A stretch of 40,509 bases of DNA from Pseudomonadota bacterium (GTDB lineage: Bacteria > Pseudomonadota > Gammaproteobacteria > GCA-001735895). The notes under the pieces were generated by a model. That model saw only the letters and a list, made by a program, of their open reading frames with translations, did no database searches and was not told the origin of the DNA. The position numbers and the translations under genes are program-made. Within the stretch, counting starts at the first letter, position 1; every line of letters begins with the position of its first letter. Shown here piece by piece: positions 1,049 to 17,717 of the stretch. Where the stretch lies: contig JADFMY010000011.1 in assembly GCA_022563685.1 (NCBI GenBank), positions 1 through 40,509 on the forward strand, given 5' to 3'.

Positions 1049-3352
1049 CTAGGTGCAGAATGGTTCTGCTCGCGCTATCAATTCTTCCAGACCTGGTTCG
1101 TCAGGGTTTCTGGGTTTGCCGGGGTGGATGATGGCTACCTGGCAAGCTTCGGCGGCTTCCACCAATTCACGATAGCTACCCGCGTCCAGATTCGCGATAT
1201 AGGCTCGCTTGTCTTCGTCGTAGGCGAACATCCGGTCGTTAAGATCGGTGCACTCGTTGCAGGTCGTGCAGCGAATGGTCTCTATCCAGGCATCATCTGA
1301 GGAAATTTCAGGCGCTTCATCTGGGGTCATTTCCACTGCCGTTTCAATCGCGGCTGATGTTTGCTCTGATTCGGTGACCACAGCTTCCTGCGATACGGCT
1401 GTGGTGGCCGCCACGCTAGCCGATGCTGGAGAGGATGAAGCCTGCGTGATCAGATGCTGTCTCTCCTCTTCCCAGGCCTCCTTTTCAAGCGCTATTGCCT
1501 TCTTTGCATGGGAATTGTTGATGCCACCCAGTTCCTGCAGGTTACGCCACAGTTCACGACAGCGTTTTGCGGCGTCGATCAGCTTGACATCGCAAACTGC
1601 CCGGTGTAGCACGTCGTCTTCGTCGATCAACAGCACATAGGGCACCTTGTCTTTGTGCGCATTTGAATCGAGTTCCAGAAATAAGTCTGCGGGCAGCATA
1701 TTACTGTCCCAGCAGGTTTCCGGAATACAGGCGAAGTGCGTGTCTAAGTGACCCTCGCAGGCGATGAAATCAAGCAGTGTAAATGCAGTCTCCTCCGTAT
1801 GACTATTATGCTCAGAATCTTCGAATCTGAGCCTATGCCGCCGCCAGTCCTGTTCGACACAGGGGTTGCCATCGAGGTGGAATCGCGATGCCAGGTCTTC
1901 ACCGGATGCGGGGTCGAATACAAAGCTGGGAAAGGCGCGTGATTCGGTAGCTGCGGCAGCTGCAAGGTAGGCGGGTCGCCCACTCTTCTCGCCGGAATAC
2001 ACACTGAACAGGGCAGGTAAGTCGCTGCACAGACCATTCATGACCCGCTCACGTAGCTGGTAAAGCGATGAAGCGGCCGACTGCAGCACGAATACGTTGT
2101 TCAGGCCCAGGGCCATGCGCGCCAATTGCTGGCCTTGCGTGCCGAAAGAGAAATGACCCGAAGCGGTCGACAGTTCGCCGACAATTTTATCTTTCTGGAC
2201 GATTATCTTGAATGGGAAACCACTGCGAAGGGTCTCGAGCACGGCTTGCTCATTCGCGGCATCATCCCCGTGTTGCAGATACACCAGGTATGACGGAAAC
2301 AGCGCCAGGTCTTCGGGCCCCAGTTGATCCTCGTCGAATCGACTGTAGAAGAAATCGTGCCGTGATTCGTCATAACGGTTTTCAATTTCTAATTCGGCTA
2401 TGCTAATGGCCTTAACAAGAGCGGCCATATCCGGCAGCCGTTTCCGGAAAGCCTCGAGAGCCTCCCCGCAGTTTTCGAAATTGAAGCCGAATGAATTGTT
2501 GACACCACTGTTTGTTACGAAATTCTGGGATTGGAAGACCGAGATAGCCTCTTTAATCCGGAGCTGGCGTTTTTCCGGCAGAGGATCGCCAACCGGCGCT
2601 GATTTCAGAATATTGGCCATGGCCTGGAAATCAAACACGTTATTGTCGCCAGTACCCATAGAGCTTTCAAGGTGTCCAGCATTTCGGGCCACGCTTGAGT
2701 GCAGGTGATCGATACGAAGGATATCCGACAGCTTCTGCTTCAGGCGATCGATCTGGGAGCCCAGTTGCATGGACTTGATTCGTTGACTCTGATTCCATGC
2801 GTGCGTAATCAGCCGTCCTGGAAGCTCGGCATCGCAGTCGATGACTTCTCCATCAAGGCCCAATTCAGCGTAGGCTTTGGCGAGGTTGTCTTCCACAGAT
2901 GAGCGTATCGTTTTGCTCACGCCGGAAAGCAGCTTTCGCCGCGCTTTTTGCCACAATAACGACAGGGGTCCTTTTTGACCCTGGCTCACCAGATTCCTGA
3001 TCTCCTGCTCCAGGTTGAGAACCTGGCGCCTGATTCCCTCACTTTCGATGCCTTCAGGTGCGACTTCCCGCAAGCTGGCGTCGATAATGTCGGCTAGCGA
3101 CCTGATCCATGCAAGCCCCTGGTCGTCGTTTAGCAGAATCAGAGGGAAGTCATAGCGAAGTTTCGACAGATCGCGGTAATCTGCAAACAGGGCTGGCCGC
3201 AACTGCTGCGGGCTGATTTTTTCAACAGGGAGCCCCGAGCGATCGCCGAGCAGATGGAAAGCAGCCAGGTTGATGCTGGTCACTGCAGTCGGGCACGGGA
3301 ATGAAATGGGAATTACTTCATTTCCTGGCCCAGGTGCAGACTCCTGGTTCAT
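1049..3352 (-). CDS. Large protein of unknown function with C-terminal [4Fe-4S] ferredoxin-like domain
   Basis: A 767-residue protein, the last gene of the Nfn-like/Kor operon; its ATG overlaps the korB stop (ATGA). The C-terminal about 80 residues carry a ferredoxin-type cluster motif: Cys695, Cys698, Cys701 (CX2CX2C) and Cys737 in the segment EACQVAIIHPGKP. A low-complexity Ala/Ser/Thr/Glu-rich linker (about 640-685) separates this tail from the rest. Residues 1-640 have no motif I can name with certainty. A stretch around GRPAYLAAAAATESRAFPSF recalls the middle region of large fused pyruvate:ferredoxin oxidoreductase-like proteins, but this is from memory and unverified. The coupling suggests it belongs to the oxidoreductase, perhaps as its ferredoxin/electron-exit subunit. 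No membrane segment or signal peptide is seen, so it is probably cytoplasmic. Confidence 0.7.
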   Translation of the reverse strand: MNQESAPGPGNEVIPISFPCPTAVTSINLAAFHLLGDRSGLPVEKISPQQLRPALFADYRDLSKLRYDFPLILLNDDQGLAWIRSLADIIDASLREVAPEGIESEGIRRQVLNLEQEIRNLVSQGQKGPLSLLWQKARRKLLSGVSKTIRSSVEDNLAKAYAELGLDGEVIDCDAELPGRLITHAWNQSQRIKSMQLGSQIDRLKQKLSDILRIDHLHSSVARNAGHLESSMGTGDNNVFDFQAMANILKSAPVGDPLPEKRQLRIKEAISVFQSQNFVTNSGVNNSFGFNFENCGEALEAFRKRLPDMAALVKAISIAELEIENRYDESRHDFFYSRFDEDQLGPEDLALFPSYLVYLQHGDDAANEQAVLETLRSGFPFKIIVQKDKIVGELSTASGHFSFGTQGQQLARMALGLNNVFVLQSAASSLYQLRERVMNGLCSDLPALFSVYSGEKSGRPAYLAAAAATESRAFPSFVFDPASGEDLASRFHLDGNPCVEQDWRRHRLRFEDSEHNSHTEETAFTLLDFIACEGHLDTHFACIPETCWDSNMLPADLFLELDSNAHKDKVPYVLLIDEDDVLHRAVCDVKLIDAAKRCRELWRNLQELGGINNSHAKKAIALEKEAWEEERQHLITQASSSPASASVAATTAVSQEAVVTESEQTSAAIETAVEMTPDEAPEISSDDAWIETIRCTTCNECTDLNDRMFAYDEDKRAYIANLDAGSYRELVEAAEACQVAIIHPGKPRNPDEPGLEELIARAEPFCT

Positions 3353-4323
3353 GCTGTTGCTCCTGTGGGGTTAATGGTAACCTTGTCGAACTCGGTCTTG
3401 AGGAAGTCGGCCACGCCCTCCGACGTATTCATTTTGTCCGGAACCTGTAAATCTTCGTAGCAGGGTATGTCCGGGTTCTTATACAGTACCCCCACTGGTA
3501 TCGGGTCGTGGCTCGAGGCGATTTCGCGTGCCCGATTGCGATCAGAGGGATCGTGTACTTCCTGGTTGGGGTATATCCGCCCCAGTTCCGGGCTGATGTC
3601 GAGACCGTTCTCGTGCTTGAGCAACAACATACGTTCAGGATTTTTCACCCAATCGTCATAGCGGTTGTCCAGATATTCCGGACAGCGCTGCAGTATACGG
3701 ATGAAGGAAAAGCCTTTGTGGCGGAACCCCTGTTGAATGATGTTGTGCGTGATGTCAGGCATCCAGTCCACAGCCTGGGCCACGAAGGAGGCACTGCGGA
3801 TGCCCAGCGTAACGCTGATGGGATTCAATGGTTCGAGGTGTGAGCCTGTTGGCGTTGTATTGCTGACCAGACCGACCGGTGATGTCGGCGAAGCCTGGTT
3901 CTTGGTCAGACCGTAAATACCGTTGTCCAGCACAATCGCTGTCATGTTCATGTTGTAGCGTACCGCGTGAATCCAGTGTGCGGTGCCAATGCTGCAACAG
4001 TCACCGTCACCCATAATCACAAATACATTCAAATCCGGACGCTTGATCTTGATGCCCTGAGCGACCGGCAGCGCACGGCCATGCAAGCCGTGAAAACCGT
4101 AAGTTCTCATATAATGAGGGAAACGGCTTGAGCAGCCGATACCCGAGACAAACACGGTCTTTTCAGGCGGCAATTGTTCCTCACGGCACAGGCGCTGTAC
4201 CGCCGCAAGTACGCCATGGTCACCACAGCCGACACACCAGCGTGGCACGATGCTCTCGTAGTCTTCCAGAGCGTAATTATTGTCGATTAATTTCATCATG
4301 CATGAAGAAACAGCGGCGCTCAT
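3349..4323 (-). CDS. korB: 2-oxoacid:ferredoxin oxidoreductase, beta subunit (TPP-binding)
   Basis: A 324-residue protein of the KorB/PorB-type beta subunit family, which binds thiamine diphosphate and a [4Fe-4S] cluster and catalyses oxidative decarboxylation of a 2-oxoacid to acyl-CoA with ferredoxin as acceptor. Visible motifs are PRWCVGCGDHG with Cys30 and Cys33, Cys64 in GIGCSSRFPHYM, and the TPP/Mg motif starting GDGD at 105-108 and ending at the LDNGIYGLTKNQ segment near 132-142. Length is normal for the two-gene (gamma-alpha plus beta) architecture. The start overlaps the korA stop by 4 bp; an internal ATG at Met9 or Met10 is an alternative start. 2-oxoglutarate is the likeliest substrate by family resemblance, but pyruvate or a branched-chain 2-oxoacid cannot be excluded. 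Confidence 0.88.
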   Translation of the reverse strand: MSAAVSSCMMKLIDNNYALEDYESIVPRWCVGCGDHGVLAAVQRLCREEQLPPEKTVFVSGIGCSSRFPHYMRTYGFHGLHGRALPVAQGIKIKRPDLNVFVIMGDGDCCSIGTAHWIHAVRYNMNMTAIVLDNGIYGLTKNQASPTSPVGLVSNTTPTGSHLEPLNPISVTLGIRSASFVAQAVDWMPDITHNIIQQGFRHKGFSFIRILQRCPEYLDNRYDDWVKNPERMLLLKHENGLDISPELGRIYPNQEVHDPSDRNRAREIASSHDPIPVGVLYKNPDIPCYEDLQVPDKMNTSEGVADFLKTEFDKVTINPTGATA

Positions 4324-6305
4324 GATTGCCCCTCCAGTGATTGCAGTTTGTCCAGAATGACCTGTTCGATGGTCCCCGGTTTTATCGGCTGGCCATTGAC
4401 CTCTGAGTAGCAGTCGATGTCTACCAGGAATCTTGCGCGTAATATCATGGCGAGCTCGGTATAGCGGCGGTTGTCCTCATCGATCAGCTCGCTCTCAAGA
4501 CTGTCGGACCAGTTGTTCTCGATGGTCATCACCTGTTTGAAACGCCCGAGCACCTCACGAATACCGGAGGCCATAGGTTGGATAAATTTCAGATGTAAGG
4601 AAGAAACCTGGTGACCTTTTGCACGTACACGATCGACAGCCTCCTGGATTGAACCCCTGGTGCTACCCCATCCGATCAGTAGCAGATCGCCTTCTTCTGC
4701 ACCGTAAACAACGGGTGCCTTCAGCGTCTTTTGCAGTGCAGCCAACTTGAGGCTCCTGTGTCGTACGCCATCCACGTTGGCTTCGCTGTCATAGGCGACG
4801 CAACTATTGCGATCGTGCGCCAAACCAGTAAGCGTGTGCATGCCGCCGGGTTGTCCGGGGATGAAGCGGCGGGCGATTCCGGTGCGGGCATCCCAGTCAT
4901 AGGCTAGTGCGTCTTCGGGCACCGGACTCTGGTCAAATGGAGGGGCATGCCAGTCTTTGCTGTAGACTGGCCGTGGGAATATCTGCTGAGCGGATGCCAG
5001 GTTGGCGTCAGACAGCACCACGACCACAACATTGAATGTCTCTGCTATCTTGCGGGCAGTGATCATTGAGTAGAAGCAATCCTCGATATCCGAGGTGGCC
5101 ATCACTACTTTTGGGTTATCGCCATGGCCACCAAAGCAGGCAAAAAGCAGGTCCGATTGCTCGGTTTTGGTGGGCAGACCGGTGCTGGGACCGCCGCGCA
5201 TCACGTTCACGACTACCAGCGGAATTTCTGCCATAACTGCCAGTCCCAGGGTTTCCTGTTTAAGTGCAAAACCAGGACCCGAGGTGATGGTCACCGCGCA
5301 TTTTCCGGCATAGGACGCGCCGATGGCAAAAGCGCAGGCCGCAATTTCGTCTTCTGCCTGGTGTACCATACCGCCGGTTTTACTGAATACTTCGCTGAGG
5401 TAATGTGATGCCGAGGTTGCCGGTGTGATCGGGTACATCGCGCAGACTTCCATTCCTGATGCCATGATGCCCATGCCGATGGCAACATTACCGTTGACCA
5501 CGATCTGGGATTCGGTCACTTTTGCGGGTGGAATCCGGTAGCGGATATCGAGATTATCTGCAGCCCAGTTAAAACCGGCTTCCAGCAACGCGATATTGGA
5601 GTTGACGATGGTCTCGCCTTTTTTGCTGAAGATATAGGCAATCTGGTTGCGCCCAAGCTGCAGATCGAGCGAGTAGATATGGCACAACATCCCCAGCACA
5701 AACATGTTTTTACCGCGATGCGGGTCGCTGACCAGGCGCAGGCATTCTTCTTCCATCGGGATTTCGCGGACGTCATAACCGCCCCGAACCATTTCGTCCA
5801 CGGCATCGGCGTACATCGCCGCTATGGCCGGGTCTTTGTGGGTCTTCCACTTGTTTTCCAGTAGCACTGTGCAGCCGGGTTTCAATTCTTGCTCGCGGGA
5901 CCTGCGTAGCATGACCTGGTCATTGAAAGCGACCATCAAATCGGCCTCGTCACCACCGTTGGTCATGCGGCGTGATGCCAACCGGACCCGGTTGCCACTG
6001 GCGCCCTCGATACTGCGTGCCGGCGGTTGAATTTCAGCAGGAATGATTTCGACCGTCCAGATACTGTTACCCATGCGAGCCGCAATCGTGGCAAAAGACT
6101 GGCCGCATTTTTGCGCACCTTCACCGGAGTCACTGACAATTTCCACAGTGTGCTCATCCAGAACCACCGCAGGCTGGCGTTTATTTGATACATCTTTTGG
6201 TCGAATCTTTACAGCTAGAGTATCGGACTGACTTTTAGCAGCCTGATGACTCACCGCCACATTGGCGCTATCTTTAGCGGTGCTGTCTTTTAACGAAGTA
6301 CTCAC
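4320..6305 (-). CDS. korA: 2-oxoacid:ferredoxin oxidoreductase, fused gamma-alpha subunit
   Basis: A 661-residue fusion. After a 50-residue, low-complexity N-terminal extension, the gamma domain begins (GEGAQKCG at 61-68) and runs to about residue 195. The alpha (pyrimidine-binding) domain starts near 270 with GNVAIGMGIMASG and YPITPAT (291-297), followed by HQAEDEIAACAFAIGASYAG and TSGPGFALKQE. The C-terminal third is the usual domain II (LLIGWGSTRGSIQEAVDRVR). Together with KorB it would form the catalytic heterodimer. The start codon is GTG (complement of 6303-6305) and overlaps the preceding gene's TGA. Such fused KorA subunits of about 66 kDa with KorB of about 34 kDa are known from 2-oxoglutarate oxidoreductases of aromatic-degrading Azoarcus/Thauera. 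That makes 2-oxoglutarate the best guess. Confidence 0.88.
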   Translation of the reverse strand: MSTSLKDSTAKDSANVAVSHQAAKSQSDTLAVKIRPKDVSNKRQPAVVLDEHTVEIVSDSGEGAQKCGQSFATIAARMGNSIWTVEIIPAEIQPPARSIEGASGNRVRLASRRMTNGGDEADLMVAFNDQVMLRRSREQELKPGCTVLLENKWKTHKDPAIAAMYADAVDEMVRGGYDVREIPMEEECLRLVSDPHRGKNMFVLGMLCHIYSLDLQLGRNQIAYIFSKKGETIVNSNIALLEAGFNWAADNLDIRYRIPPAKVTESQIVVNGNVAIGMGIMASGMEVCAMYPITPATSASHYLSEVFSKTGGMVHQAEDEIAACAFAIGASYAGKCAVTITSGPGFALKQETLGLAVMAEIPLVVVNVMRGGPSTGLPTKTEQSDLLFACFGGHGDNPKVVMATSDIEDCFYSMITARKIAETFNVVVVVLSDANLASAQQIFPRPVYSKDWHAPPFDQSPVPEDALAYDWDARTGIARRFIPGQPGGMHTLTGLAHDRNSCVAYDSEANVDGVRHRSLKLAALQKTLKAPVVYGAEEGDLLLIGWGSTRGSIQEAVDRVRAKGHQVSSLHLKFIQPMASGIREVLGRFKQVMTIENNWSDSLESELIDEDNRRYTELAMILRARFLVDIDCYSEVNGQPIKPGTIEQVILDKLQSLEGQS

Positions 6306-7816
6306 ACGGCCCCCTGCAAGGTTCTTATTCTAGTAAAATTCCTTTCTTCACGGACAATCCCGAAAAGCTTGTTTTCCGGGTCTGACCTTTCATTCCTGTA
6401 CACCACATCGGTATCCCGGATGCCGAGGTATGCCTTCATTGACGCAGCCGCCTGGCGCCCCGCGCCCATCGCCAGGATCACTGTCGCCCCGCCGGTCACT
6501 ATGTCCCCGCCGGCATAAACGCCGGCAAGCGAGGTGGCCATGTTCGCATCGGTTTCGATGAATCCCCACTTATTGAGTTTGATGTTAGACGTTTGCCCCA
6601 TGATCGGGTTCGCGCTGGTGCCAATGGCGTATACGATGGTGTCAGCTTTAAATTCAAATTCACTGCCCTGAACGGGTATAGGGCTCCGTCTCCCTGACTC
6701 ATCCGGCTCACCCAATTCCATGCGGATACAACGCATGCCACGCACGTTACCCTTGCCATCATCCAGGATCTCAAGCGGGTTGCTAAGCCAGTGGAACTCG
6801 ACGCCTTCTTCCTTGGCGTGCTCGATTTCCTCGTTGCGGGCAGGGCTTTCCTCGATGGTGCGGCGGTAAATACAATATACTTTATCAGCGCCCATGCGCA
6901 GCGATACGCGCATCGCGTCCATCGCTGTGTTGCCCGAGCCGATTATCGCAACCTGCTTGCCCAGGCCCAGTGGTGTATCGTGGTTTGGGAAGTCTCCGGC
7001 CTGCATCAGGTTGCAACGTGTTAGCAACTCGTTAGCAGACAAAACACCATTCAGAAATTCACCCGGGATATCCATGAAGCGGGGTGTGCCGGCACCAGTG
7101 CCGACAAACACCGCGTCGAAACCGAGTTCATCGATCATTTGCGCGATGGTAAACAGGCGACCAACCAGGGTGTTGCATTCAATCTTGACGCCCAGTTTGA
7201 CCAGCTTGTCGATTTCGGTCGCGATCACGGAGTCGGGCAGGCGGAATTCAGGGATGCCATAGCGCAGTACGCCACCGGGTTTGTGGAAGGCTTCGTAAAC
7301 CGTGACATCACAACCGGCCTTGGCCATATCCGCAGCACAGGCGATACCGGCTGGCCCCGAGCCGACGATACCGATCCTGTAGCCGTTGGCTTCCATGTAG
7401 GGAACATTGGACCAGCCCTTGTCGATGGCCTGATCGCCAACCCAGCGCTCAAGCCGTCCAATAGCGACCGGCTCCAGGGTATCGCCGACAGGACATACGG
7501 CTTCGCACTGGTCTTCCTGTGGGCAGACCCGGCCGCAAATGGCTGCCAGCAGGTTGGCGTCGCTGAGCACGTCGTAGGCGCCACGGTAATCCTTGTCGAC
7601 TATTTTCTGGATGAAACCCGGGATATCGATGCGCACCGGGCAAGCGGGCACGCAGGCCGGATTTGCACACATCAGGCAGCGTTCCGACTCAACCAGGGCG
7701 TCTTCCAGACTGTAGCCGATTGCGACTTCATCAAAATTCTTGACCCGCTCTATCGGCGTCTGTACCGGCATCGAGGTACGGTCCTGGGGGATGGTTCTGA
7801 TCGTTTTTTTGGCCAT
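6302..7816 (-). CDS. NfnB/SudA/GltD-like NAD(P)H-dependent flavin-iron-sulfur oxidoreductase
   Basis: A 504-residue member of the glutamate-synthase small-subunit-like family. The N-terminal Fer4_20-type domain carries two four-cysteine sets (Cys47, 50, 55, 59 and Cys94, 98, 104, 108), as expected for two [4Fe-4S] clusters. An FAD-binding Rossmann motif (GSGPAG, about 152-157) and an NAD(P)H-binding motif (IIGSGNTAMD, about 291-300) follow, then the C-terminal FAD motif ending GVYAGGDIVTGGATVI. No glutamate synthase large subunit is nearby. The partner immediately upstream is an NfnA/SudB-like FNR protein, a pairing typical of NADH-dependent ferredoxin:NADP oxidoreductase (Nfn) or sulfide dehydrogenase/ferredoxin:NADP reductase (Sud). 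I infer electron transfer between ferredoxin and NAD(P)H. Confidence 0.85.
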   Translation of the reverse strand: MAKKTIRTIPQDRTSMPVQTPIERVKNFDEVAIGYSLEDALVESERCLMCANPACVPACPVRIDIPGFIQKIVDKDYRGAYDVLSDANLLAAICGRVCPQEDQCEAVCPVGDTLEPVAIGRLERWVGDQAIDKGWSNVPYMEANGYRIGIVGSGPAGIACAADMAKAGCDVTVYEAFHKPGGVLRYGIPEFRLPDSVIATEIDKLVKLGVKIECNTLVGRLFTIAQMIDELGFDAVFVGTGAGTPRFMDIPGEFLNGVLSANELLTRCNLMQAGDFPNHDTPLGLGKQVAIIGSGNTAMDAMRVSLRMGADKVYCIYRRTIEESPARNEEIEHAKEEGVEFHWLSNPLEILDDGKGNVRGMRCIRMELGEPDESGRRSPIPVQGSEFEFKADTIVYAIGTSANPIMGQTSNIKLNKWGFIETDANMATSLAGVYAGGDIVTGGATVILAMGAGRQAAASMKAYLGIRDTDVVYRNERSDPENKLFGIVREERNFTRIRTLQGAV

Positions 7817-7818
7817 GA

Positions 7819-8730
7819 TCAGATTCTCGCCTTACAGCTTTCGGTCCATTTTTCGACGGCAATTTTTTCTTCTTTGGAAAACCGTCCCAGGCGGTTCATC
7901 AGATCGGCGAAATCCACCTCGTGGCCATCGAACTCAGGTCCGTCGACACAGGCGAACTTCATCTTATCACCCACCTTGACGCGGCAACCACCGCACATGC
8001 CGGTGCCGTCAACCATCACCGGATTCAAGCTGACGGTAGTCTTGATTCCATAGGGCCGCGTGGTTTCGGCACAGGCCTGCATCATGATCGGCGGGCCAAT
8101 CGCCAGCACCTCCTGGATGTCCGGGTGCTTTTCTATTGCCAGCTCGATGCCATCTGTGACCCGGCCCTTGATGCCTGTCGATCCGTCATCGGTGCAGATA
8201 ATGAACTCATCGCAGTATTGAAGGAACTTGTCATCCCAGAAAACCAGGTCCTTGTTGCGGAAGCCGACGACGCCGATGACATAAGCGCCTGCTTCCCTGT
8301 ATGCCCGCACTAGTGGGAACACAGGTGCGACGCCAAGACCACCGCCCACGCAGACGACTTTCCCGACATTGCGGATGAGACTCGGCTTACCCATAGGACC
8401 GGTTACACTGATCAACTCCGTACCAGCCCGGCAATCACGCTGCATCTCTTTGGTGGTTTTCCCTACCGCCTGTATAACGAATGTAATGGTGCCCTGTTCA
8501 CGGTCGAAATCCGCAATGGTCAGTGGAATTCGCTCTCCATTTTCATGCGACATCACAATCACGAATTGCCCGGGCCGAGCGGCTTTCGCCATCATCGGAT
8601 GCCGAATTTCCAGCAGGTAGGTAATGTCCGAGAAGTCCTCGCGCCGGATGATCTCAATAGCGGAAGCGTGATGGCCCTCGGGAGTCGATGGATTGCTCTC
8701 GTGGAGCTCTCGATTTTTTCTCAAGGACAT
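7819..8730 (-). CDS. NfnA/SudB-like FAD/NAD-binding [2Fe-2S] subunit
   Basis: A 303-residue ferredoxin-NADP-reductase-fold protein of the dihydroorotate dehydrogenase electron transfer subunit/SudB/NfnA family, first gene of the operon. It shows the flavin-binding RIPLTIADF segment (67-75), the nucleotide-binding glycine run GGGLGVAPVFPL (129-140) and a C-terminal [2Fe-2S]-binding cysteine set MCGGC...C (Cys246, Cys249, Cys261). An approximately 20-residue polar N-terminal extension precedes the fold. It ends two bases before the GltD-like gene, so the two should be co-translated as a heterodimer. Control is probably by the FNR/ANR-type box at 8799-8812. The Shine-Dalgarno is weak (GAGAA). 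Pyrimidine synthesis (PyrK) is unlikely because no pyrD is adjacent. Confidence 0.85.
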   Translation of the reverse strand: MSLRKNRELHESNPSTPEGHHASAIEIIRREDFSDITYLLEIRHPMMAKAARPGQFVIVMSHENGERIPLTIADFDREQGTITFVIQAVGKTTKEMQRDCRAGTELISVTGPMGKPSLIRNVGKVVCVGGGLGVAPVFPLVRAYREAGAYVIGVVGFRNKDLVFWDDKFLQYCDEFIICTDDGSTGIKGRVTDGIELAIEKHPDIQEVLAIGPPIMMQACAETTRPYGIKTTVSLNPVMVDGTGMCGGCRVKVGDKMKFACVDGPEFDGHEVDFADLMNRLGRFSKEEKIAVEKWTESCKARI

Positions 8731-8763
8731 AACACTTTTTCTCGGTAATAACTACGCATGTTG

Positions 8764-8812
8764 ACTATAAATACTATAGTCTAAAAAATAGGCGCTGCTT
8801 GATATTGATCAA
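8764..8812 (-). promoter_or_regulatory. FNR/ANR box with downstream -10 for the nfn-like/kor operon
   Basis: Positions 8799-8812 read TTGATATTGATCAA, an exact match to the FNR/ANR consensus TTGAT-N4-ATCAA. On the minus strand, a -10-like TATAGT sits at 8778-8773, followed by another AT-rich hexamer. With a start near 8764-8766 the box would be centred about 40-42 bp upstream, the position for class II activation by FNR-family proteins. No plus-strand gene nearby could use the site instead. The match is direct; activation under low oxygen is inference. Confidence 0.75.
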
Positions 8813-9617: not shown

Positions 9618-9685
9618 CCCACATATTGCATAGAGGCGGTACTGACAATAATGAATTTTTCTATATTGCAATAACTTATTACCAA

Positions 9686-10120
9686 ATGCCAAGTATCCAC
9701 CGTAGCGCGCTAATGCCTTTTTCCGCACAAACCATGTATGAAATCGTGAGCGATGTGGCTAAATATCCGGATTATTTACCCTGGTGCGGTGACTGCAAAA
9801 TTTTGTCACAGAGCGATACTTCGATGAAAGCAGCGATTTTAATGAAGAAAGGTAAGGTGAATCACTGGTTTTCGACACAAAATGTGTTGGTGGTCAATCG
9901 TAGAATCGAAATCACACTGATCGATGGACCGTTTAAACGCCTCGATGGTGTCTGGCAGTTTATTGCGCTTGATCAGGAGTCCTCAAAAATTATGCTCGAT
10001 TTGAGTTTTCAGTTTCCGAGCGGCCTCGTATCTACCCTGGTGGCGCCAGTGTTTACCCGGATTGCGAATACTATGGTCGATTCCTTTTGCTCCCGAGCCT
10101 ACGAAATTGGTCCGGCATGA
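9686..10120 (+). CDS. ratA: RatA-like START/SRPBCC-fold protein
   Basis: A 144-residue protein with the typical RatA/YfjG/Coq10 start (MPSIHRSALMPFSAQTMYEI) and the conserved segment VAKYPDYLPWCG. In E. coli RatA was described as a toxin that binds the 50S subunit and blocks subunit association; the relatives of mitochondrial Coq10 suggest a ubiquinone-related lipid-binding role. The frame is open further upstream to 9626, but the ATG at 9686 gives the family N-terminus. Its TGA overlaps the ATG of rnfH. smpB, the usual divergent neighbour, is absent; the decayed symporter lies there instead. Confidence 0.88.
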   Translation: MPSIHRSALMPFSAQTMYEIVSDVAKYPDYLPWCGDCKILSQSDTSMKAAILMKKGKVNHWFSTQNVLVVNRRIEITLIDGPFKRLDGVWQFIALDQESSKIMLDLSFQFPSGLVSTLVAPVFTRIANTMVDSFCSRAYEIGPA

Positions 10121-10428
10121 GTACAAAAATCATGATCGAAGTTGCTTACGCGACACCAGAATTTCAAAAAATAATCGAGCTTGAAGTCGAAAAGGGAACC
10201 TCCGTATTCGATGCGGCCGGACGATCGGAAATCACGCAATATTTCCCCGAGATCGATTTAGAACATACCAATTTAGGCGTGTTTGGCAAGATAGTCCCGT
10301 CCGATTACAAACTGATCGATGGTGACCGAATTGAAATTTACCGCGCTCTAATAGCAGACCCGAAAGAAATAAGACGCCAGCGTGCAGCAAAAGGACTAAA
10401 AACTAAAAAAGGTGGGGGTGCGGGTTAA
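10117..10428 (+). CDS. rnfH: RnfH family ubiquitin-fold protein
   Basis: A 103-residue protein of the RnfH (UPF0125) family, a beta-grasp fold related to ThiS/MoaD but without the terminal Gly-Gly thiocarboxylate function. The core reads MIEVAYATPEFQKIIELEVE with later FGKIVPSDYKLIDGDRIEIY. The C-terminus is basic (DPKEIRRQRAAKG). Its function is not firmly known; the name comes from Rnf clusters, but the ratA-rnfH pair seen here (4-bp overlap) is the common arrangement. No rnf genes are in the window. Confidence 0.9.
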   Translation: MSTKIMIEVAYATPEFQKIIELEVEKGTSVFDAAGRSEITQYFPEIDLEHTNLGVFGKIVPSDYKLIDGDRIEIYRALIADPKEIRRQRAAKGLKTKKGGGAG

Positions 10429-10439
10429 ATCTGATCTGG

Positions 10440-10760
10440 TTAACTCTTGTCCAGGGAACCTTCGATTGACGTCAGTAGATCGCCATCGAACCTGAGTATC
10501 ATGGCTCTCTTCTCGATTGAGCCGTCTTCTCCAGATTTCAGGAAATACACATAATGCCAGGCGTCGGGATGATAAATGTCCCTGATCGCCGGTTCCCCAA
10601 GCAAAAATTCGACCTGGCGTTTGGTCATTCCTACTTCGAGTTGTGCTATCGTCCCGCTATTGATTCGGTTACCTTGCGGAATATCTATTCGGTAGATACA
10701 GGCAGGCAATGATACAATTGAGACGATCAGGGTCAGGATGAATAACCAGCGTGATTTCAT
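10440..10760 (-). CDS. bamE: Outer membrane assembly lipoprotein BamE (SmpA/OmlA)
   Basis: A 106-residue lipoprotein. The N-terminal signal peptide (about 1-20) ends in the lipobox LPAC, making Cys21 the lipidated residue. The SmpA/OmlA fold follows, with GMTKRQVEFLLGEPAIRD and WHYVYFLKSG. BamE is a small accessory subunit of the beta-barrel assembly (Bam) complex on the periplasmic face of the outer membrane. It converges with rnfH (11 bp apart) and diverges from fur, the usual bamE-fur arrangement in gammaproteobacteria. Confidence 0.93.
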   Translation of the reverse strand: MKSRWLFILTLIVSIVSLPACIYRIDIPQGNRINSGTIAQLEVGMTKRQVEFLLGEPAIRDIYHPDAWHYVYFLKSGEDGSIEKRAMILRFDGDLLTSIEGSLDKS

Positions 10761-10837
10761 TTTATTAGTACAGGATGACGGGAGCGCCGATCATACTGAC
10801 CTCGGTAACAGGCTGCAATGATATAGAGTTAAATTTT

Positions 10838-11248
10838 ATGGAATCATCCGATATCAAAAATGCAGGGCTAAAACTAACCTTGCCCAGAATGAAGATTCTG
10901 GAGTTACTTGAAAGTTCTAATGAACGCCACCTGAAGGCCGAAGATATTTATAAAATGCTGCTCGATTCAGGTGAAGAAATTGCGCTCGCTACGGTTTATC
11001 GGGTGTTGACACAGTTTGAAGCTGCTGGTCTGGTCAACCGGCATCACTTCGATGGTGGACATGCGGTATTTGAAATAAACGATGGCGCACACCACGATCA
11101 TCTGGTCGACTTGTCGAATGGCAGGGTGGTTGAATTTTACGACGAGGCGATAGAAAAACGCCAAAAAATAATAGCCGAAAAATATAATTTCACCATCACC
11201 GAACACACCATGGTGTTATACGGACACTTTAACAAAGATAGTAATTAG
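10838..11248 (+). CDS. fur: Ferric uptake regulator Fur (cysteine-free)
   Basis: A 136-residue Fur. The winged-helix part carries GLKLTLPRMKILELLE and the recognition region ATVYRVLTQFEAAGLV; the metal-binding part has HHFDGGHAVFE and GAHHDHLVDL. It is closest in layout to the short Pseudomonas-type Fur, without the C-terminal His/Cys-rich tail of E. coli. The protein has no cysteine: the segment that is CLDCGKV in E. coli reads DLSNGRV here, so the Cys4 structural zinc site is absent. I chose the ATG at 10838 because it gives the family start (MESSDIKNAG); the frame is open upstream to 10775. It represses iron-uptake genes with Fe(II). No clear Fur box is seen in the 77-bp bamE-fur spacer. 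Confidence 0.93.
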   Translation: MESSDIKNAGLKLTLPRMKILELLESSNERHLKAEDIYKMLLDSGEEIALATVYRVLTQFEAAGLVNRHHFDGGHAVFEINDGAHHDHLVDLSNGRVVEFYDEAIEKRQKIIAEKYNFTITEHTMVLYGHFNKDSN

Positions 11249-13928: not shown

Positions 13929-14969
13929 ATGACTGAAAAATACGAACTTGACGAACGTGCGCAACTTCTGTTGAAGCAGCTTATCGCCTCGTATACACGT
14001 GACGCCCAACCGGTTGGCTCGAAATATCTGGTCGAATTGTCTGGCCTTGAAGTCAGTTCGGCAACTATTCGAAATATCATGTCCAAGCTGGAAGCTATGG
14101 GTCTGGTTGATTCCCCGCATACTTCGGCTGGTCGAATTCCAACCGAAGCAGGTTACCGGTTTTTTGTAGATTCGTTGCTGGAAGTGAATGATCTCGGTCA
14201 ATCCGCGAGAAAAACTATTTCGGACCGGTTGAGCCCCGATATGACGTCCAATGACCTGATCCATAGCGCCACCGAAATTCTATCCAGCGTGACCCAACTG
14301 ACTGGAATTGTTAGTCTGACCCACTCGACACCGGCTGAAATCAGGCATATCGAATTTATGCGCCTGACGGAGCGAAGGATTCTGGTCATTCTGGTGATTA
14401 ATCAGGATGATGTACATAACAAGGTTATCGAGGTAGATAAAGACTATAGCGATATAGAACTAAATCAGGCTGCCCAGACCCTGAGTCGTTATTTGATAGG
14501 TAGAGACTTTAACAGCGCGCGAAATCAGTTAGTAGAAGAATTGTCGGAGCTCAAGAGCGAAGTAAGCACCATCATGAAGGCCGTGCTGGATGCGATGGAA
14601 CAGGTCTGTAATGAGAGCGATCACGATGATTTGTTGACTAGCGGCGAGTCAAACTTGCTCCGATATACAGAACTCTCAGATATCAATAAGTTACGTGACA
14701 TATTTAATGTATTTAATGAGAAAAAAGACTTGCTTCAACTACTCGATAGCTGTACTTTGGCCGATGGCGTAGAGATATTTATCGGTAGTGAATCGGGTTA
14801 CACGATACTGAGCGATTTTAGTGTTCTTGGGGCACCCTATCAAATCAATGGTGAAGTGGTTGGGGTTGTCGGTGTTATCGGCCCGACCAGAATTGCTTAC
14901 GAACAGGTGATACCTGTAGTAGATGTTACCGCAAAATTATTAAGTTCGGCCTTGAATACTCAGAAATAA
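13929..14969 (+). CDS. hrcA: Heat-inducible transcription repressor HrcA
   Basis: A 346-residue HrcA. The N-terminal winged helix includes DAQPVGSKYLVE and SSATIRNIMSKLEAMGLV; the GAF-like dimerisation domain and the C-terminal IGPTRIAYEQVIPVV are present. HrcA represses heat-shock genes by binding the CIRCE inverted repeat and needs GroEL for activity. It is the first gene of hrcA-grpE-dnaK-dnaJ. I find no CIRCE (TTAGCACTC-N9-GAGTGCTAA) before hrcA, grpE, dnaK or dnaJ, so its target is probably groESL elsewhere, as in several other proteobacteria that keep both HrcA and sigma32. That last point is inference. Confidence 0.95.
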   Translation: MTEKYELDERAQLLLKQLIASYTRDAQPVGSKYLVELSGLEVSSATIRNIMSKLEAMGLVDSPHTSAGRIPTEAGYRFFVDSLLEVNDLGQSARKTISDRLSPDMTSNDLIHSATEILSSVTQLTGIVSLTHSTPAEIRHIEFMRLTERRILVILVINQDDVHNKVIEVDKDYSDIELNQAAQTLSRYLIGRDFNSARNQLVEELSELKSEVSTIMKAVLDAMEQVCNESDHDDLLTSGESNLLRYTELSDINKLRDIFNVFNEKKDLLQLLDSCTLADGVEIFIGSESGYTILSDFSVLGAPYQINGEVVGVVGVIGPTRIAYEQVIPVVDVTAKLLSSALNTQK

Positions 14970-14977
14970 CCCCCACT
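14950..14977 (+). promoter_or_regulatory. Sigma32-type heat-shock promoter for grpE
   Basis: CTTGAA at 14950-14955, a 14-bp spacer, then CCCCACTT at 14970-14977, close to the sigma32 consensus CTTGAAA-N(13-17)-CCCCATnT. It overlaps the last codons of hrcA and lies about 120 bp before the grpE ATG, so it would drive grpE-dnaK-dnaJ without hrcA. The match is seen directly; use by sigma32 is inferred. Confidence 0.75.
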
Positions 14978-15098
14978 TTTTTGCTCACGAAATTTCGCGA
15001 CTGACCCAGGGTTCCCTGGAATACCAGCCGCACATTAGTTATTGATAAAGAGCAACCTACTTTTAATAGAAAGTGCTGCCATATTCCCGGAGTAAGGT

Positions 15099-15692
15099 AT
15101 GTCGTCTGAACAAGATCAGATAGAAGAAAATGAAAAAGATGTGATTGCCGAGCCAGATAAAGTGGTTGACGAAACACCCGGCAAAAATTCCGCCGAATCG
15201 GATTCAGAAAAAGAAGCAGAGAAAGCAGAGGATAATATCGAACTTGAACTCGAAAAGGCGCAGGAAAAAATAAAGGATTACTGGGATCAGATCCTGCGCT
15301 TGAAAGCCGAGATCGAGAACAATCGTAAACGTGCCGAGCGGGACATCGAAAGTGCCCACAAATATGCTTTGAAAAACTTTGTTGAAGCACTTTTACCTAT
15401 CATAGATAGTATGGAAATGAGTCAGGCGGCGGCCGATGCCGAAAATGCGAGCCTGGAGAGTTTTAGCGAAGGAGTGGATCTGACGATGAATATGTTTATT
15501 CAGATGCTGGAAAAACAGGGACTAGTCCAGCTCGATCCGCAGGGTGAAAAATTTGATCCTGAACAGCATCAGGCGATCAGCATGAAAAAGGACAAGAAAG
15601 CAAAATCCAACACGGTCATTGAAGTGATGCAAAAAGGATTTCTGTTAAACGACAGGCTAGTCAGGCCAGCGATGGTAATCGTGGCCAAATAA
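15099..15692 (+). CDS. grpE: Nucleotide exchange factor GrpE
   Basis: A 197-residue GrpE. The acidic, disordered N-terminus (about 1-50, Glu/Asp/Lys-rich) leads into a long coiled-coil helix (IELELEKAQEKIKDYWDQIL) and then the C-terminal beta domain containing GEKFDPEQHQAISM and GFLLNDRLVRPAMVIV. It releases ADP from DnaK and senses temperature through its helix. The Shine-Dalgarno CGGAGTAAGG is well placed. Preceded by a sigma32-like promoter; dnaK follows 96 bp later. Confidence 0.96.
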   Translation: MSSEQDQIEENEKDVIAEPDKVVDETPGKNSAESDSEKEAEKAEDNIELELEKAQEKIKDYWDQILRLKAEIENNRKRAERDIESAHKYALKNFVEALLPIIDSMEMSQAAADAENASLESFSEGVDLTMNMFIQMLEKQGLVQLDPQGEKFDPEQHQAISMKKDKKAKSNTVIEVMQKGFLLNDRLVRPAMVIVAK

Positions 15693-15715
15693 ATCGGATG
15701 CCGAATGACAAATGA

Positions 15716-15743
15716 CTTGAAACAGGGGGATTAATCCTCACAT
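15716..15743 (+). promoter_or_regulatory. Second sigma32-type promoter, for dnaK
   Basis: CTTGAAA at 15716-15722, a 13-bp spacer, then CCTCACAT at 15736-15743, a good -35 and fair -10 for sigma32. It lies in the grpE-dnaK spacer about 45 bp before the dnaK ATG. A second promoter here would let dnaK be made in excess of grpE. An imperfect hairpin (ACTTGA 15715-15720 with TCAAGT 15743-15748) overlaps the site, but no T-run follows, so a terminator is less likely. Confidence 0.6.
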
Positions 15744-15788
15744 CAAGTGTAGGTTTAATTTAATTGACAGATTATCTGGAGCATATAA

Positions 15789-17717
15789 ATGGGTAGAATT
15801 ATTGGAATCGACCTTGGAACCACTAACTCGTGTGTAGCGGTTATGGAAGGTGGCAAGCCCAAGGTTATCGAAAATTCAGAGGGAGATAGAACGACTCCTT
15901 CTATAGTCGCATTCGGAGTCGAGGGTGAAGTATTGGTAGGCCAGCCGGCCAAGCGCCAGGCGGTTACCAATCCGAGCGACACGTTGTACGCGGTCAAACG
16001 CCTGATCGGTCGTCGTTTCGACGAAAAAGCAACACAGAAGGACATCGAACTGGTGCCATATAAAATTATCAAGGCTGACAATGGCGATGCCTGGGTAGAG
16101 GCCAAGGGCGAGAAAATGGCGCCACCCGAAATTTCTGCCAGGGTTTTGCAGAAAATGAAAAAAACTGCGGAAGATTACCTGGGTGAAGAAGTCACCGAAG
16201 CCGTCATTACCGTGCCCGCTTATTTCAACGACTCTCAACGCCAGGCGACCAAAGACGCGGGGAAAATTGCCGGTCTGGAAGTCAAGCGCATCATCAACGA
16301 GCCAACCGCAGCAGCGCTGGCCTACGGTATGGACAAGGCATCGGGTGATAAGAAAATCGCGGTTTATGACCTCGGTGGCGGTACTTTCGATATTTCGATT
16401 ATCGAAGTGGCGGAAATCGACGGTGAACACCAGTTTGAAGTGCTATCGACCAATGGCGATACTTTCCTCGGAGGCGAAGACTTCGATATGCGTCTGATCG
16501 ATTATCTGGCCGATGAGTTCAAGAAGGAACACGGCATGGATTTGCGTGGCGATCCGCTCGCCAAGCAGCGGCTCAAGGAAGCGGCCGAAAAGGCTAAAAT
16601 TGAATTATCTTCAAGCCAGCAAACCGATGTCAACCTGCCGTATATTACCGCCGATGCCGCGGGTCCCAAGCACCTGAATTTGAAGATAACCCGGGCCAAG
16701 CTCGAATCGCTGGTCGACGACCTGATCGCACGCACCATAGATCCATTAAAAGTAGCGCTCGATGACGCCGATGTTTCGGTTTCCGATATCCACGACGTGA
16801 TCATGGTAGGCGGGCAAACCCGTATGCCCAAGGTGCAGGAAGTGGTGAAGAACTTTTTTGGCAGAGAACCTCGTCGCGATGTGAATCCAGACGAAGTCGT
16901 TGCCTGCGGCGCCGCAATCCAGGGCGGTGTCCTCGGTGGTGAGGTCAAGAATGTATTGTTACTCGACGTGACTCCGCTTTCTCTTGGCATCGAGACACTC
17001 GGCGGCGTGATGACCAAGGTGATCGAGAAAAATACGACGATTCCGACCAAGGCATCGCAGACCTTTTCGACAGCAGAAGACAACCAGACTGCAGTAACGG
17101 TTCATGTAATGCAGGGCGAACGTGAAATCGCGACAGCGAATAAGTCTCTGGGCCGTTTCGATTTGTCTGATATTCCGCCCGCTCACCGTGGTGTGCCACA
17201 GATCGAAGTCACCTTTGATATCGATGCGAACGGTATCTTAGACGTATCGGCAAAAGACAAGGCGACAGGCAAGGAACAGAAAATCGTGATCAAGGCATCC
17301 AGTGGCCTGTCGGAAGACGAAGTCGAAAAGATGATCAAGGACGCCGAGGTGCATGCGGATGAAGACCGTAAACACCGTGAAATGGTCGAAACTCGCAATC
17401 AGGCCGATGCGATGATTCATGCCACGGAGAAATCGCTGAAGGATCTCGGTGATCAGGTCGAAGCCGAGGACAAGACCAATATTGACTCGGCAATTGCCTC
17501 GCTTAAGTCCGCACTGGAAGGAACCGACAAGTCAGATATCGAAAGCAAAACTCAGGCACTGGCCGAGGCATCGAGCAAACTGGCTGAAAAAGCCTATGCC
17601 GCCAATGCCGAGGGAGCTGAGCCGGTTGATGCGAATGCAACAGCAAAGCCAGGTGATGCGAATGACGATGTGGTAGACGCTGAATTTGAAGAAGTTAAGG
17701 AAGAAGACAAGAAGTAA
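15789..17717 (+). CDS. dnaK: Molecular chaperone DnaK (Hsp70)
   Basis: A 642-residue Hsp70 of normal length. The ATPase domain starts [20 protein letters not shown] and includes [10 protein letters not shown]-type phosphate-binding loop residues ([15 protein letters not shown]) and [11 protein letters not shown]. The interdomain linker reads [15 protein letters not shown], the substrate-binding domain follows, and the C-terminus is acidic, ending [13 protein letters not shown]. It folds and protects proteins with DnaJ and GrpE. It probably has its own sigma32 promoter (15716-15743) besides read-through from grpE. Confidence 0.98.

Follow-up and report, generated by a model that had tools for sequence, protein, structure and literature searches.

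What purpose is served by placing an Nfn-like flavoprotein pair, a 2-oxoacid oxidoreductase and a large protein of unnamed family in one operon is the question raised by a 40,509-nucleotide stretch of DNA (the window; contig JADFMY010000011.1 of the Pseudomonadota bacterium assembly GCA_022563685.1). Five genes of the window encode NfnA-like and NfnB-like subunits, KorA, KorB and a 767-residue protein ending in a ferredoxin domain, here called the adaptor. On balance, we think that these genes probably, if not securely, specify one soluble, FNR-controlled 2-oxoacid:NAD(P) oxidoreductase wired by a tethered ferredoxin. The tight coupling of the five minus-strand genes, pointed out in an initial annotation of this DNA, was confirmed: three of the four junctions overlap by 4 bp (6302-6305, 4320-4323 and 3349-3352), and NfnA and NfnB are separated by 2 bp. 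Pfam and NCBIfam called the first four genes as NfnA/DHODB-like, GltD/NfnB-like, KorA and KorB. The features, in coordinates of the window, are as follows.

7819-8730, minus strand: NfnA-like gene, 303 aa; flavin/[2Fe-2S] subunit, first in transcription order
6302-7816, minus strand: NfnB-like gene, 504 aa; eight N-terminal Cys and Glu101
4320-6305, minus strand: KorA gene, 661 aa, GTG start; fused gamma-alpha 2-oxoacid oxidoreductase subunit with YPITP motif
3349-4323, minus strand: KorB gene, 324 aa; thiamine diphosphate and [4Fe-4S] subunit
1049-3352, minus strand: adaptor gene, 767 residues; predicted PFOR-like C-terminal half with lost thiamine site and tethered ferredoxin
1493-2461, minus strand: adaptor residues 298-620, a pseudo-thiamine domain; alignable to the thiamine domain of PFOR, motifs gone
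1298-1435, minus strand: adaptor linker, Ala/Pro-rich and of low model confidence, about residues 640-685 (pLDDT <50 at 646-679)
1058-1288, minus strand: adaptor C-terminal single [4Fe-4S] ferredoxin, residues 689-765 (C695, C698, C701, C737; Fer4_13)
8799-8812, minus strand: FNR/ANR-type box, exact match, starting 82 bases ahead of the NfnA start codon

Named genomes, one per species (84,980 species), were scanned with an alignment of ten KorA proteins, and at least 592 stretches matched, at least 552 of them encoding KorA relatives. Neighborhoods were counted for the 80 best of the at least 552 KorA relatives; because these loci were picked by closeness of KorA, they give no measure of how often such a KorA lacks its partner genes. 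All five genes were found in order and on one strand in 64 of the 80 loci. Another 15 are cut short by a contig end no more than about 215 bases from the last gene detected, and the remaining one (L147) was rejected as a case of adaptor loss because its sequence reads N after about 63 residues of the adaptor; clean loss of any of the five genes was seen in none of the 16 incomplete loci. The 64 include some partial genes: contig ends truncate NfnA or the adaptor in L113, L122, L142, L162, L166 and L183, the matches to NfnA and NfnB are fragmented in L184, these two genes are separated by 1.6 kb in L122, and the scripted extension of the NfnA frame stopped early in L146 and L186. Median intergene gaps were 29, 21, 9 and 32 bases, with starts guessed by script. 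No further family recurred in more than 10 of the 80 loci in one clustering of the neighboring open reading frames of at least 100 aa.

The 80 loci belong mainly to Alpha-, Beta- and Gammaproteobacteria and mainly to metagenome bins; Photobacterium lipolyticum, Ideonella sp. A 288 and Propionivibrio soli are isolates among them, and a few records are labelled Acidobacteria, Chloroflexi, Armatimonadota or Thermoanaerobaculia. A genome of the same class and another family (G246) carries the same five genes. NfnA of the operon kind was detected at E ≤ 1e-30 in 4 of 369 genomes of the class (the genome of the window, G246, G152 and G230), and KorAB was not found within the stretches fetched around NfnA of G152 and G230. 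When the named genomes were searched with just the 767-residue protein, zero matches were obtained, unlike with the KorA alignment. Chance and assembly artefact were rejected as explanations, given that 64 of the 80 loci, and G246 besides, have the five genes in this order. This co-occurrence count agrees with the earlier proposal that the genes belong together, since the homologues are not scattered and the 767-residue gene is not missing from intact operons; the idea that this gene combination is confined to the one genome was not borne out, as the set is widespread among named genomes. The operon is real and conserved, and it is explained in part.

The best PDB match of the NfnB-like protein was T. 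maritima NfnB (4ylf_B, 528.7 bits over residues 13-464), and PDB chains named glutamate synthase small chain scored 285 bits or less against it. The NfnA-like protein matched P. furiosus NfnS best (5jca_S, 325 bits over residues 25-297). By these matches, the pair sits closer to NfnAB than to GltD, which corrects the naming in the initial annotation on this one point. Residue invariance was counted over the window and those sequences of the 80 loci that are full length. NfnA has the FAD/NAD fold and an Asp-Cys3 [2Fe-2S] site whose residues D241, C246, C249 and C261 are invariant in 66/66 sequences. NfnB has the two-dinucleotide fold and two [4Fe-4S] sites of eight cysteines and one glutamate; the eight N-terminal cysteines reported earlier are present (47, 50, 55, 59, 94, 98, 104 and 108), and together with E101 they are invariant in 75/75. 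These we take to be the Nfn ligands, including Glu as a cluster ligand of NfnB.

KorA and KorB are intact, and all aligned cofactor ligands are kept. KorA scored 511 bits with TIGR03710, over the cut-off, and KorB was just below the cut-off of TIGR02177 (both NCBIfam); their best PDB matches were 6n2n_A and 6n2n_B of Magnetococcus. The fused gamma-alpha subunit has the YPITP motif, invariant in 81/81 sequences, and the beta subunit has GDG and four cysteines, with C30, C33, C64, C214, G105-D106-G107 and L139-T140-K141 invariant in 76/76. Judged by alignment with solved relatives and, for 2-oxoacid:ferredoxin oxidoreductases (OFORs), by PMC5020499, the invariant residues of the Nfn and Kor proteins appear to be ligands and active-site residues. 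The genome of the window also has a second, distant KorAB pair (G000:C86:21068-21991, L107), with about 30% and 36% identity.

The 767-residue protein carries the [4Fe-4S] tail seen in the initial annotation: Fer4_13 (E 3e-5, residues 692-743) was its sole Pfam domain over cut-off, with no match to POR_N or POR, and NCBIfam gave zero matches. Relatives were found in 16 of 95 genomes searched, including its own, and in 34 of the 369 genomes of the class, a count made up of PFOR-like giants, adaptors and a small number of weak matches with E 1e-10 to 1e-5. Adaptors have 750-860 residues and follow KorB directly, in Nfn operons as well as in the Rnf operons described below. Adaptor residues 298-765 match the last 470 residues of PFOR-like giants of about 1650 residues at 30-34% identity. 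The giant that was scanned has POR_N, PFOR_II, POR, thiamine and Fe-S domains and a C-terminal ferredoxin, and GDG and NTGG, as well as YPITP, are kept in 10/10 giants. Motifs were compared in 82 adaptors (68 Nfn-type, 13 Rnf-type and that of the window) aligned with E. coli YdbK, which has both GDG and NTGG. NTGG occurs in 0/82 adaptors and the dicluster motif CxxCxxCxxxC is absent from all 82; the four-cysteine tail is in frame in 81 of them, that of L024 sitting in a separate frame, and the four ferredoxin cysteines are invariant in 54/54.

An AlphaFold2 model of the adaptor had a pLDDT of 87 and a pTM of 0.78, with residues 646-679 unstructured. In a Foldseek search with this model, all 17 hits at E ≤ 0.001 and also the 18th were PFORs, and the 19th was ferredoxin I (E 0.036). 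Of the hallmarks of PFOR, the adaptor has the C-terminal homology, and it lacks the intact thiamine site, the pyruvate-binding alpha domains and the dicluster ferredoxin. Considering alignment and model together, the adaptor appears to be a PFOR-derived C-terminal half that has lost its thiamine site. In 69 Nfn-type sequences, the linker that leads to the ferredoxin contains 40% Ala and 19% Pro and has a median length of 30 aa, and the adaptor of G246 (L064, 8152-11070) has three closely similar ferredoxins with Ala/Pro-rich stretches between them. A ferredoxin arm rich in Ala and Pro can be likened to lipoyl arms.

The adaptor also occurs with another electron exit. In 13 loci (L023, L024, L025 and L065-L074) it lies directly before RnfB, which in turn precedes a second protein of PFOR-like type; in 12 of them the adaptor comes after KorA and KorB, the stretch of L070 beginning at the adaptor. 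RnfC is on the same stretch in nine (L023, L024, L065, L066, L068, L069, L071, L072 and L073), and SucC and SucD lie inside the operon in four (L024, L069, L071 and L073). Genes for a NuoF-like protein, a fumarate reductase-like flavoprotein and an Fe-S protein stand upstream of KorA in L067, L069, L071, L073 (1609-5131) and L074, L024 having two of them there; this set is possibly an NADH-dependent fumarate reductase. In the one-contig genome of L024 (G074), the KorA region (14144-16009) and the adaptor tail (10652-10897) are both split over frames, by frameshifts or sequencing errors. The 11 second PFOR-like proteins examined have 1143-1599 aa (e.g. L023:6144-10745 and L066:11512-15984) and two dicluster motifs; their aligned regions lack YPITP, GDG and NTGG, and a ferredoxin tail is missing. 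By this motif content, the second protein and the adaptor seem jointly to hold the Fe-S sites of one giant PFOR minus its chemistry; the protein behind RnfB is apparently another dead PFOR retained in an operon. In nine loci (L026, L028-L033, L038 and L076) an intact giant is flanked by RnfB and RnfC, which suggests an Rnf-linked 2-oxoacid, perhaps pyruvate, oxidoreductase. In the Riftia symbiont, expression of a dimeric korAB(3) and of a 'PFOR-like' gene drops together (PMC11636981), and these might be the Rnf-type KorAB and PFOR-like protein seen here.

The FNR box reported earlier (TTGATATTGATCAA) is exact at 8799-8812. The window by itself has three boxes with at most one mismatch, no more than chance would give (the shuffled mean was 2.08, and 38 of 100 shuffles had at least 3). 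The support for FNR comes from recurrence upstream of related operons and not from the box count of the window. In 29 of 65 loci, the 300 bases ahead of NfnA contain an FNR-like box with at most one mismatch (exact in four), against a mean of 1.27 and a maximum of 4 in 200 random draws from the same loci. This contrast is overstated, since most draws come from coding DNA and several of the loci are closely related and have a single box in common. In G246 the box listed ahead of the operon has two mismatches and falls outside this threshold. The genome of the window encodes a Crp/Fnr protein with what we take to be an FNR-like cysteine pattern. FNR-type control of the operon, which the initial annotation had read from the single box, is thus supported as a prediction by the boxes of the 29 loci and by this regulator.

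From these parts, the following mechanism can be proposed. KorAB would oxidize a 2-oxoacid, most likely 2-oxoglutarate, with coenzyme A (CoA), and low-potential electrons would leave through its [4Fe-4S] cluster. The adaptor, a scaffold made from the C-terminal half of a PFOR without its thiamine chemistry, would dock the enzymes into a complex, and its ferredoxin, on the flexible Ala/Pro-rich arm, would carry electrons from KorB to the cluster end of NfnB. NfnAB would then couple these electrons with NADH to reduce NADP+, giving 2-oxoglutarate + CoA + NADH + 2 NADP+ -> succinyl-CoA + CO2 + NAD+ + 2 NADPH as the net reaction, or the enzyme would work backwards and form 2-oxoglutarate at the expense of NADPH. 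With potentials of about -500 mV for ferredoxin, -380 mV for NADPH and -280 mV for NADH (PMC9304861), the oxidative direction should be downhill. The pair 2-oxoglutarate/succinyl-CoA is put forward as the most likely substrate pair mainly because of sucCD in 4 of the 13 Rnf-type loci and of the fumarate reductase-like sets. A low-oxygen side route trading 2-oxoglutarate for NADPH would fit best, since the genome of the window has a gene for 2-oxoglutarate dehydrogenase E1 and gave no convincing match to nitrogenase or benzoyl-CoA reductase.

Several observations weigh against parts of this proposal. The E1 gene means that the operon is not the sole route from 2-oxoglutarate; replacement of a missing 2-oxoglutarate dehydrogenase by KorAB was rejected here on that ground. 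No sucCD was matched in the sequence around the 80 Nfn-type operons. KorB Arg67 aligns with Lys49 of StOFOR1, whose K49R mutant strongly prefers pyruvate (PMC5020499); an Arg also stands at this position in 6n2n_B, from a structure titled 2-oxoglutarate:ferredoxin oxidoreductase. The sequence of an Nfn protein cannot by itself separate bifurcating from non-bifurcating activity (PMC6405883). As for the adaptor, a first column count that found all adaptors without GDG was overturned by a recount of letters: GDG occurs in the pseudo-thiamine region of 8 of the 82, never with NTGG, and L136 alone has it near the right place. For this reason, the proposed loss of the thiamine site rests on NTGG. 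Foldseek TM-scores were low (0.16-0.22 of the query), because single domains align, and when the PDB was searched with a profile built from the adaptor, ferredoxin I was the only plausible match (two others had E 0.6-0.7), so that the link to PFOR rests on the giants and the fold search.

The same module could be run in the opposite sense, as a 2-oxoglutarate synthase in which NADPH drives the reductive carboxylation of succinyl-CoA at low oxygen, and the backward reaction may perhaps be possible at high NADPH and CO2. The Rnf sister operons, with sucCD in 4/13 and the fumarate reductase-like set in 6/13, contain the reductive order fumarate-succinate-succinyl-CoA-2-oxoglutarate; a synthetic direction has been suggested for Por-Bfu as well (PMC9304861), and in tubeworm symbionts the genes of 2-oxoglutarate:ferredoxin oxidoreductase (OGOR), interleaved with bifurcating Flx-Hdr, are proposed to serve the reverse tricarboxylic acid cycle (PMC6315080). 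The absence of a PF16114 (ATP-citrate lyase) match says little, since the controls gave none either, but the potentials of PMC9304861 make this the uphill direction, and we regard such use as unlikely while keeping it foremost among the alternatives. If the enzyme were non-bifurcating, the NfnB-like subunit alone would reduce NADP+ with electrons from KorAB, as a GltD-like subunit reportedly does in Azoarcus evansii, and NfnA would be regulatory or act on another substrate. NfnA was, however, matched in every locus whose contig reaches far enough, with its Asp-Cys3 site invariant in 66/66. In addition, seven of the 80 loci (L149, L150, L153, L168, L181, L185 and L186) have a separate KorA2-KorB2 set in the vicinity of the operon, with a GltD-like gene visible beside it in five and the stretches of L149 and L181 ending there, so that two systems coexist; the non-bifurcating alternative is accordingly rated rather improbable.

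A further possibility is that the operon supplies ferredoxin to a separate low-potential sink, benzoyl-CoA reductase or nitrogenase, for which the adaptor would be the donor or docking protein. The Nfn homologue AadN is needed for anaerobic aromatic degradation in R. palustris as the proposed feeder of benzoyl-CoA reductase, a mutant AadN supports nitrogenase, and KorAB is cited as donor in Thauera (PMC9973337). Many of the 80 record titles are Betaproteobacteria, and G246, which has the operon, gave a NifH match of 439 bits and two neighboring BcrAD_BadFG matches over cut-off, a family that is unspecific and matches E. coli too. In the genome of the window (92% complete), however, BcrAD_BadFG gave only two sub-cut-off matches of 20-21 bits, and the NifH-family matches, which score at most 29 bits and of which two barely exceed the cut-off, covered 39-52 of 271 positions, as a true NifH would not; neither sink is supported there by the matches found. 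No shared sink gene was found beside the 80 loci, and the ferredoxin of the operon is tethered and not free. We hold this supply role to be improbable, slightly more so than a non-bifurcating enzyme. That the 767-residue protein has a catalysis of its own and is not an electron adaptor would agree with the partial conservation of its residues outside the ferredoxin and with the GDG letters kept by a few adaptors, but the loss of NTGG, the conserved ferredoxin tail and the constant place after KorB in Nfn and Rnf operons make this very improbable.

Taking the tethered-ferredoxin oxidoreductase as the working reading, a wider proposal is that a dead PFOR half was turned into a swinging ferredoxin carrier that wires KorAB to NfnAB or Rnf, in a widespread, oxygen-regulated, bifurcating 2-oxoglutarate:NAD(P) oxidoreductase, mostly of Proteobacteria and unnamed so far. 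We offer it tentatively, as quite possible and somewhat short of probable. If true, it would provide a second, low-oxygen 2-oxoglutarate/succinyl-CoA route beside the ordinary dehydrogenase, making or spending NADPH by bifurcation; a dead enzyme would have been kept as wiring, with a tethered instead of a free ferredoxin, and the same module would be plugged into either of two electron exits, Nfn or Rnf.

A quickly built tree of 49 KorA sequences bears on how this lineage came by the Nfn form. It included two outgroups, L064, the window, 33 of the 80 loci and twelve sequences from Rnf-type or unplaced loci, and its root is not trusted because both outgroup branches are very long. Ten Rnf forms and the fragments G001 and G006 made one group (SH-aLRT 99), and by this grouping the genus-mates G023, G001, G006 and G011 carry Rnf-group KorA. 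The window paired with Photobacterium lipolyticum (99) and then with a Chromatiales bin (100). RnfC over cut-off was found in 24 of 24 other genomes searched and not in that of the window (92% complete, 6% contaminated), and the G+C content is 0.547 in the operon versus 0.486 in the window to its right. The simplest reading would be that this lineage gained the Nfn form laterally. The neighboring genes at 9626-10760 are presumably RatA-like, RnfH-like and BamE-like; the operon thus adjoins an RnfH-like gene, though its genome gave zero RnfC.

Compared with known systems, the operon shares with NfnAB two full-length subunits with best PDB matches there and the aligned cluster ligands, and what sets it apart is that KorAB and an adaptor with a ferredoxin domain are encoded in the operon together with them. 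In Azoarcus evansii, the 2-oxoglutarate:NADP+ oxidoreductase reportedly has three subunits, KorAB and an NADP-reducing GltD-like flavoprotein being sufficient, with neither NfnA nor adaptor. By that definition the present operon, which keeps NfnA and the adaptor, is not of the three-subunit kind, and it is the KorA2-KorB2 set near seven of the 80 operons that has the look of such an enzyme. In bifurcating BfuABC modules, BfuB is the NuoF/HydB-like core subunit, and the Complex1_51K domain was found by Pfam in none of the five proteins here. In this respect the operon differs from Por-Bfu, in which a pyruvate oxidoreductase is predicted to be joined to the BfuABC core, and it is similar in that a 2-oxoacid oxidoreductase is encoded with a bifurcating NAD(H) module (PMC9304861). 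Flx-Hdr interleaved with KorABCD, proposed in tubeworm symbionts, likewise ties an OGOR to an electron-bifurcating complex, but the OGOR has four subunits and the bifurcation is of Hdr type, and such an adaptor is not mentioned in the available text (PMC6315080). AadN, a fused Nfn of Rhodopseudomonas palustris, is a proteobacterial Nfn homologue used under anoxia and linked to the job of KorAB; the aromatic degraders of this species have either AadN or KorAB, so that AadN occurs in strains without korAB instead of being joined to it, and the accessible part of the article mentions no such adaptor (PMC9973337). The two-subunit OFORs or OGORs of Magnetococcus (6n2n) and S. tokodaii (StOFOR) have the same domain set, YPITP, GDG and four KorB cysteines, whereas StOFOR uses a separate ferredoxin (PMC5020499) and a tethered one is encoded in the operon here. 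The words oxoglutarate and oxoacid are absent from the available text of the Nfn review (PMC6405883), and no description of the five-gene set or of the adaptor was found in searches of the open literature, subscription papers being mostly outside its reach. OFORs joined to bifurcating modules are, by the available accounts, already known as a kind, and the new element of the present operon is the adaptor, an unnamed family that matched no named one beyond its ferredoxin tail.

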